Assembly (NCBI RefSeq): GCF_001263415.1
Contig: NZ_LGTE01000027.1
Span: 1 to 37,495 of the forward strand
DNA from: Thermincola ferriacetica
GTDB lineage: Bacteria > Bacillota > Thermincolia > Thermincolales > Thermincolaceae
DNA length: 37,495 nt
Direction: 5' to 3'
Shown: positions 8,041 to 9,604 of the stretch, piece by piece
Numbering within the stretch: the first letter of the stretch is position 1
Layout of the letters: every line of letters begins with the position of its first letter
Program-made: the position numbers and the translations under genes
The notes under the pieces: generated by a model
Seen by the model: only the letters and a program-made list of their open reading frames with translations
Told to the model about the DNA's origin: nothing
The model's database searches: none

Positions 8041-9261
8041 TTTATTTGGAAGCTCCCGACCTGCCAGCCGCAGAAAGATCATGCCTGCGGTTGCCGAAAC
8101 GGCCGAACCGGTAATAATAGCTATTTTTGCTGTTGATAATAAATCCGGATTGATAAAAGCCAGGCTGGCAATGAAGAGGGACATGGTAAACCCAATACCG
8201 CCGAGAATACCCGCACCGTATATATGACGCCAATGTACATCCCTTGGCAAAACAGCCAGTTTGGCCTTGACCATTATGTACGAGAAACCGGCAATGCCAA
8301 TCTGCTTACCCAAAAACAAACCCAGGATAATACCTAGGAAAACAGATGTTTTCAGTTGGCTTGCCAAATTACCCAAGTTAATCTCAACCCCTGCGTTAGC
8401 TAAAGCAAAAACCGGCATGATTAAATAAGTTACCCAAGGATGCAGAGAATGCTCCAGTTTATGCAGGACCGAGGCTTCCTGCGAATCAGATTCCACCGGA
8501 ATAAGCATGCCCAAAATCACCCCGGCAATGGTAGCATGTATCCCGGACTTCAGTATCGCCAGCCAAAAGACTCCGCCTAAGATCAGGTAAAAAGATATTT
8601 TCTGCACTTTTAATTTGCACCCAATAAATAAAATCAGCGCTACAATCAAAGCTGCCGCCAAAGCCTTTACAGATATATGGGCTGTATAAAATAAGGCTAT
8701 GACCAGGACCGCACCTATGTCGTCGACTATAGCCAGCGCGGTAAGAAACAACGCCAAATTCCGGGGAACGGATCTACCGACAAGAGAAATGCAACCTAAA
8801 GCAAAAGCGATGTCAGTGGCCATGGGAATTCCCCAGCCAGATATTGCATCACTGCCGGCGTTAAACCAAGTAAAAATTAAGGCGGGTACCACCATACCCC
8901 CAACAGCCGCCCCTACCGGTAAAGCAGCTTTTCGTATGGAACTTAGTTCCCCGGCCACAATCTCCCGCTTAATTTCCAGACCTACCACCAAGAAAAATAT
9001 TGCCATCAACCCGTCATTGATCCACAGAATTAACGGTTTTGACAGGGCAAGGCCATCAAAACCTATCGTAAATTTGGCTCCAAAAAGAGCATCATAAATC
9101 GGCTTCCAGGGTGAGTTGGCCCAGATCAAAGCAGCGACAGTGGCTATTAACAGAAGGATACCACCAGATGACTCCATTTTAAAAAATTCTTCAAACGGCC
9201 GGATAGCTTTGGCGGAAATAATTCTGATTGCTTTTATACCCTTTTTTGCTTTCCTGATCAC
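8023..9261 (-). CDS. nhaA: Na+/H+ antiporter NhaA
   Basis: NhaA exchanges cytoplasmic sodium or lithium for protons across the inner membrane and aids pH and salt homeostasis. The paired aspartates of transmembrane segment 5 are seen in ALAIVDDIGAVLVIALFYT. About twelve hydrophobic segments and the MATDIAFALG block fit the family. The longest frame opens at 9297, but GGAGGG lies six bases before a GTG at 9261, giving 412 residues. About 300 bases of leader precede it, holding a riboswitch-like structure and an intrinsic terminator, so expression is probably set by transcription attenuation. The gene stands alone and ends inside the terminator shared with its convergent neighbour. Confidence 0.95.
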   Translation of the reverse strand: MIRKAKKGIKAIRIISAKAIRPFEEFFKMESSGGILLLIATVAALIWANSPWKPIYDALFGAKFTIGFDGLALSKPLILWINDGLMAIFFLVVGLEIKREIVAGELSSIRKAALPVGAAVGGMVVPALIFTWFNAGSDAISGWGIPMATDIAFALGCISLVGRSVPRNLALFLTALAIVDDIGAVLVIALFYTAHISVKALAAALIVALILFIGCKLKVQKISFYLILGGVFWLAILKSGIHATIAGVILGMLIPVESDSQEASVLHKLEHSLHPWVTYLIMPVFALANAGVEINLGNLASQLKTSVFLGIILGLFLGKQIGIAGFSYIMVKAKLAVLPRDVHWRHIYGAGILGGIGFTMSLFIASLAFINPDLLSTAKIAIITGSAVSATAGMIFLRLAGRELPNKKTSPV

Positions 9262-9398: not shown

Positions 9399-9427
9399 AA
9401 AAAAGAGTAGTCTGAAAAAGACTACTC
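9399..9427 (-). terminator. Intrinsic terminator in the nhaA leader
   Basis: On the minus strand an eight-base-pair stem, GAGTAGTC with GACTACTC, a seven-base loop and six U residues form a standard terminator. It lies between the folded leader and the nhaA start, in the position of a riboswitch expression platform. Confidence 0.85.
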
Positions 9428-9437
9428 CCCCCTAGAA

Positions 9438-9544
9438 GTCGATTCCTTGCATCCCGGCTGCCGTAGATCAGCGGTCCTTGGCCCCACTGTATCCTAAGGC
9501 CCTTGGGCTTTAGCGCCCCCAGCTTTCACTGGGTTTACATCAAC
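9438..9544 (-). ncRNA. Riboswitch-like structured leader RNA upstream of nhaA
   Basis: The minus-strand leader folds into a closed domain. GUUGAU (complement of 9539-9544) pairs with AUCGAC (complement of 9438-9443). Inside are a hairpin CCCAG-UGAAAG-CUGGG, then GGCGCUAAAGCC, then GGGCCUUAGG, then GGGGCCAAGG, then a GCUG/CAGC hairpin and CCGGGAUGC. The order of the AAAGCC block, the GGGCCU block and the final GGCAGCCGG recalls the GEMM-I (cyclic-di-GMP) aptamer, but with an extra U in GCUAAAGCC. The antiporter gene makes a sodium-sensing class (the DUF1646 motif, Na+-I) an alternative. The class is not settled from sequence alone. The terminator follows directly. Confidence 0.65.
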
Positions 9545-9575
9545 ACTGAGAACATATGTTTTTTTTACAATCTTT

Positions 9576-9604
9576 ATTTTACTAAAATTCGCCCTTCCTG
9601 TCAA
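9576..9604 (-). promoter_or_regulatory. Sigma-A-type promoter for the nhaA leader
   Basis: On the minus strand TTGACA (9599-9604) and TAAAAT (9576-9581) are 17 bases apart. Transcription would begin near 9569, just ahead of the structured leader. Confidence 0.7.

Follow-up and report, generated by a model that had tools for sequence, protein, structure and literature searches.

The 37,495-nt stretch of the Thermincola ferriacetica genome analyzed here (hereafter, the window) carries a Na+/H+ antiporter gene, nhaA, behind a long leader that resembles a GEMM-I riboswitch, which raises the question of what kind of RNA precedes this gene and to which signal it would respond. The initial annotation had described a promoter, a closed domain, a terminator and nhaA, following one another on the minus strand. 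All of these elements are present and had been placed correctly: the promoter at 9604–9576, a GEMM-I-like three-helix domain at 9548–9445, the terminator at 9427–9405, and the nhaA start at 9261. The leader very probably belongs to a riboswitch-type regulatory subclass, which is derived from GEMM-I and serves cation/proton antiporter genes.

Parts of the nhaA leader and its placement in Rfam

All parts of the leader lie on the minus strand. The sigma-70-type promoter consists of TTGACA (9604–9599), a 17-nt spacer and TAAAAT (9581–9576); a consensus scan gave 11 of 12 matching positions, and one site of this grade is also expected by chance in the region. In the aptamer domain, P1 is formed by GUUG (9544–9541) and its partner CAAG (9449–9446), where C9449 is the equivalent of C92, and the helix has the form GUUR/YAA across the variant set described below. 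The J1/2 linker AU (9540–9539) holds the equivalent of G20, which is U in the window. P2 (9538–9513) comprises GU/GC base pairs and a CCCAGU-GAAA-GCUGGG hairpin, all six pairs of which show compensatory changes in the variant set. A single U (9512) is inserted between the equivalents of C46 and A47, and P3, with a variable tip, occupies 9509–9451. A candidate antiterminator (9440–9420), whose arrangement is common to the variant set, is made of GACUUCU (9440–9434), a G run and AGUAGUC (9426–9420). The intrinsic terminator GAGUAGUC-UUUUUCA-GACUACUC (9427–9405) is a hairpin followed by six T, with the U tract reaching 9399.

A ribosome binding site, GGAGGG (9273–9268), precedes the probable GTG start codon (9261–9259) of nhaA (9261–8023), the product of which scores well over the cut-offs of NF007111 (481.6 bits) and TIGR00773 (428.3 bits). 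The next gene is convergent, and nhaA is therefore a single, stand-alone gene, as initially annotated. Upstream of the leader, gpr (spore germination protease) is divergently oriented. The region that separates the terminator from the start of nhaA contains a partly palindromic repeat of about 100 bases (9405–9300), reminiscent of a MITE or a REP-type element. Some 18 good copies of it were counted in the host genome, including one that follows the GEMM-I leader L008.

At gathering thresholds, no Rfam family was reported at the leader. The initial annotation had proposed a scan for c-di-GMP-I, DUF1646, nhaA-I and nhaA-II, and only the first of these responded: at lax thresholds over a 391-base stretch, the sole sensible match was to the c-di-GMP-I clan (RF01051; 34.9 bits, marginally below the cut-off of 35; E-value, 2.5e-05), while Na+-I (DUF1646), nhaA-I and nhaA-II remained unmatched up to an E-value of 10. 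Among the options left side by side in that annotation, a variant GEMM is thus retained and a Na+-I (DUF1646) riboswitch is not. The known antiporter-linked cation riboswitches Na+-I, Li+-I, Li+-II and Na+-II have other architectures (PMC9337991, PMC9646797), and that of Na+-I is limited to two extended helices, P1 and P2 (PMC9337991). Although these RNAs likewise regulate genes of cation transport, nhaA and nhaD among them, they differ from the window leader in architecture and conserved sequences, and membership in Na+-I, Li+-I (nhaA-I) and Li+-II (nhaA-II) is rejected since their Rfam models do not match.

The P2/P3 two-hairpin architecture with its junction was found in the window leader as well as in its relatives; other members score 43–71 bits against RF01051. 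The window leader, the P3 of which carries a G–A mismatch, has the lowest Rfam score among the copies examined, and both facts weigh against the favored account. The P2 loop, which in c-di-GMP-I is a GNRA loop that docks into a P3 receptor, reads GAAA in the window leader and in the majority of copies, AAAA in genomes G004 and G006, and UAAA in G385. Further likenesses to c-di-GMP-I are this mostly GAAA-type loop, a conserved C44-like residue, AAAG after the junction, and a terminator-type platform. In contrast to c-di-GMP-I, the subclass has a pyrimidine between C46 and A47, a fixed GUUR/YAA P1, relaxed positions 20 and 92, a single shared expression platform, and only cation/proton antiporter genes downstream. 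The usual c-di-GMP-I spacing of the G20, A47 and C92 contacts is absent from the window leader, where a base is inserted before A47.

Two other offshoots of GEMM-I were considered. The cGAMP riboswitch (GEMM-Ib) resembles the subclass in having its own gene set, but its change is G20A without an insertion, and A20 is not what was found here: position 20 is U in the window, and G, U or A in the subclass. The c-di-GMP-I-GGC family (RF03167; at least 59 bits) also has a changed core residue, G47 in its model, whereas the subclass keeps A47 with a base inserted before it, and RF01051 is the better match. The window leader has all the marks of the subclass, i.e., the inserted pyrimidine before A47, the GUUR/YAA P1 and an antiporter gene downstream.

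None of the 14 ordinary GEMM-I copies found above the cut-off in the host genome has the insertion. Two of the ordinary host copies (L008 and L012) have A at position 20, a mark of cGAMP-type riboswitches, and at L003 (1501–1874) of the host genome a GEMM-I copy and a purine riboswitch are found within about 170 bases of one another, on opposite strands.

Relatives of the leader and the genes behind them

Close nhaA genes (51–53% identity) are present in two genomes (G004 and G006) that share the order but represent other genera, and each of these genes is preceded by a variant leader in which the aptamer domain (9548–9445 in the window) is conserved and compensatory changes occur in P2 and P3. 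In the three nhaA leaders of the order, P3 has a YAA/G internal loop in place of the bulged A. The description of the region as a riboswitch-like leader for nhaA is supported by these two relatives and their covariation.

A covariance model (R1) built from these three nhaA leaders gave these leaders 112–124 bits, whereas no ordinary GEMM-I copy of the order exceeded 46 bits. When 398 genomes of the phylum were searched with R1, a middle group (47–61 bits) appeared, with the inserted U and the shared P1 and terminator platform. A first sequence pattern, GTAAAC...GGCGCTAAAG, was too narrow and recovered only the three nhaA leaders. A gene-blind pattern (AAAC, 8–24 bases, GGNCGCTAAAGYY) applied to the same 398 genomes gave 18 hairpin-forming matches in 14 genomes, all of them before antiporters. 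A second model (R2), built from these 18 matches, gives the window aptamer 94.7 bits; the search with it took in another two orders, with 74 and 80 genomes. In total, the pattern and covariance-model searches of about 540 phylum genomes yielded 58 aptamers with an inserted pyrimidine, found in 47 genomes and eight families. The inserted U (9512) pointed out in the initial annotation is real, and is a conserved mark of a subclass that is tied to antiporter genes. Of the 58 aptamers, 55 have U and three have C as the added base, which all of the 56 canonical copies lack. One more aptamer (L358, genome G524), which precedes a CitMHS-type antiporter gene, is ambiguous and intermediate in form: either U replaces A47, or an insertion is combined with a deletion.

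Covariation was assessed in 62 aligned matches (60 distinct, 58 with the insertion). This alignment, fitted to the model and thus favoring structure, has 98.4% of cells paired, with changes on both sides in 13 out of 21 pairs and 115 double-change cells, compared with 27 in shuffles and no more than 48 in slid versions. The independent alignment of 18 sequences gave a like picture (96.8% paired; 29 double changes versus 9). Absence of covariation in relatives had been named in the initial annotation as part of what would refute its proposal; the covariation that is present favors a structured RNA. The fold energy of the leader is unremarkable (z, −1.76) and is weak evidence alone; it is the comparative data, i.e., variant leaders in other genera together with covariation, that carry the case for the observation. 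The P1 sequence is also fixed within the subclass, as GUU(G/A) with (C/U)AA, while ordinary copies have no fixed P1 sequence.

All of the 58 inserted-pyrimidine leaders precede a cation/proton antiporter gene. The gene products are CitMHS/MamN-like in 28 cases, NhaB in 22, NhaA in seven (two clades), and CPA2 (PF00999) in one. The two NhaB proteins scanned match NF007093 with about 797–799 bits. The CitMHS-type proteins belong to PF03600 and have MamN as the nearest NCBIfam model, with scores under its cut-off; they are putative cation/proton antiporters, related to ArsB and NhaD. In contrast, no antiporter gene of these kinds lies within 1500 nt of any of the 56 ordinary GEMM-I copies, which come from the host, its order and the phylum, and antiporter genes are absent also at the three R2 matches without the insertion. 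Fisher's test gives a value of 6.6e-34, which is not a true probability because the leaders are related. More telling is the diversity of the genes: the variant precedes antiporters of at least four families that are non-homologous or only distantly related, and none of these families has the ordinary form. In one genome (G415), a variant leader, a CitMHS-type antiporter gene and a gene for the beta subunit of a Na+-translocating decarboxylase form one apparent operon (L366), and five related genomes (L361–L365) each have two consecutive leader–NhaB units.

Outside the phylum, the survey covered 80 nhaA loci, viral contigs and one plasmid search. None of the 80 nhaA loci of other phyla has a variant leader, 58 pattern matches in viral contigs include no convincing GEMM structure, and the plasmid records gave a single short, weak match. 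The variant subclass appears not to have been separated previously from the c-di-GMP switch, and to control antiporters by transcription termination. A literature search, with subscription journals thinly covered and novelty accordingly unproven, found no paper linking GEMM or c-di-GMP riboswitches to sodium antiporters. Public annotation files most RNAs of the subclass as c-di-GMP-I; if their ligand differs, sodium antiporters would be wrongly placed in the c-di-GMP regulon of many bacteria.

A separate array was seen in genome G507 (L360, 1368–1781), where a GEMM-I copy with a GUUG-type P1 and without the insertion is flanked by two molybdenum-cofactor riboswitches (RF01055). The gene downstream of this array looks like a hydrogenase small subunit.

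The aptamer core and candidate ligands

In the Vc2 aptamer, c-di-GMP is held by G20, A47 and C92 (PMC4744006). Ordinary GEMM-I copies have G at position 20 in 48 out of 56 cases, A at position 47 in all 56, and C at position 92 in 51 out of 53. Among the 58 leaders of the subclass, position 20 (which directly precedes G21) holds G in 44 cases, U in nine and A in five, and position 92 is C in 49. The J1/2 linker of the variant set reads GG (30), G (14), GU (6), AU (3), GA (3) or AA (2). As regards the 19–92 pair, A–U stands for G–C in four leaders and G–U in one, with the base missing in two and A in one; these replacements likely reflect one or few evolutionary events.

The fold is c-di-GMP-I-like, with P2, P3 and a junction pocket, and the pyrimidine is inserted beside the residue that stacks between the two bases of c-di-GMP; P1 is now a fixed GUUR/YAA helix. 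In the proposed arrangement, the inserted pyrimidine would pair with position 20, and position 92 with the P1 strand. Position 20 and the inserted base can pair in 49 of the 58 leaders (G–U or G–C in 44, A–U in five), and the other nine have U–U. Two such intramolecular pairs would occupy the places of G20–Gα and C92–Gβ around A47, i.e., the RNA would fill its own ligand site. A dinucleotide would hardly fit into a site filled in this way, which would suit a small ligand. A ligand other than c-di-GMP is probable in our opinion, and the domain may answer most likely to Na+, or else to another signal of salt or pH load. The assignment to Na+ itself is tentative, its chances being slightly short of even. 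It is also possible, though we propose it with some reserve, that the GEMM-I scaffold, known for cyclic dinucleotides alone, has come to sense Na+ (or another monovalent cation or pH) directly, with the guanine sites filled by its own bases, the ion bound in the junction pocket, and antiporter genes of several unrelated families switched on. The ligands of earlier riboswitch variants are for the most part chemically related to that of the parent class, which counts against Na+. If the ligand does differ, this would be a rare instance of a scaffold that gave up a nucleotide for a signal of unrelated chemistry, marked mainly by the insertion of one base, and if it is Na+, a further class of RNA for intracellular sodium would be added to the few such sensors known.

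The same positions can be read in favor of c-di-GMP. The G before G21 and C92 are retained in most members, so the contacts with c-di-GMP could survive; A47-like residues are also present, most leaders exceed the RF01051 cut-off, and the host encodes 17 GGDEF matches beside its ordinary GEMM-I copies. The leaders would then be ordinary c-di-GMP-I riboswitches in ligand terms, with the inserted base tolerated or tuning affinity, and this messenger would control the antiporters and be tied to sodium and pH balance. We consider this somewhat unlikely, as the downstream genes separate the inserted from the ordinary copies completely, the insertion adjoins A47, the P1 sequence is fixed (which it is not in ordinary copies), and a minority of leaders have U or A at positions 20 and 92, or a paired or missing base there.

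A different nucleotide messenger (c-di-AMP or cGAMP, for instance) is an unlikely ligand, even though GEMM-I variants that have changed to cGAMP are already known (PMC7266159) and a G20A/C92U mutant of Vc2 was reported to bind c-di-AMP (PMC9049102). The combination of A20 with U92 does not describe the subclass, where position 92 mostly remains C and covaries with position 19. As for physiology, ion and osmotic balance are usually signaled by c-di-AMP, and antiporters would fit its regulon. The GGDEF proteins of the host were examined for a Hypr-type motif in connection with cGAMP and gave no support: none was clearly seen, and the motifs that were read keep the usual Asp, with the exception of one Asn.

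The expression platform

After P1, all main groups of the subclass have an (A)ACUUCU-like strand, a G run and AGUAGU. The antiterminator hairpin (about −6 kcal/mol) is predicted to form before the 3' arm of the terminator exists, with a probability above 0.5 in 42 out of 55 leaders. For 53 of the 55, termination is predicted once the leader is complete (mean predicted terminator energy, −19 kcal/mol), and therefore the switch must act during transcription.

Nearly invariable termination of the full-length leaders could also be expected of a constitutive or protein-binding attenuator that descends from GEMM-I and does not switch with a ligand. Such a leader is very improbable here, since the aptamer core is the best-conserved part, as in riboswitches, and the P2 loop and the P2 and P3 helices are kept. 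In the ligand-responsive reading, which we prefer, ligand binding would bias the nascent RNA between the antiterminator hairpin (GACUUCU/AGUAGUC) and the terminator, and would in this way set the transcription of nhaA. For an exporter, an ON switch is the direction to expect, on physiological grounds only. One candidate for the step that couples P1 to the platform was a long-range pairing of the P1 strand with the antiterminator strand, and it would have accounted for such a switch; it performed no better than in shuffled sequence. For the account as a whole, i.e., a dedicated antiporter subclass with a self-filled pocket, Na+ or a salt/pH signal as the ligand, and switching at the terminator, we judge the chances to be evenly balanced.

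The ambiguous aptamer L358 has an antiterminator sequence that differs from that of the set and is common to L357 and L360.
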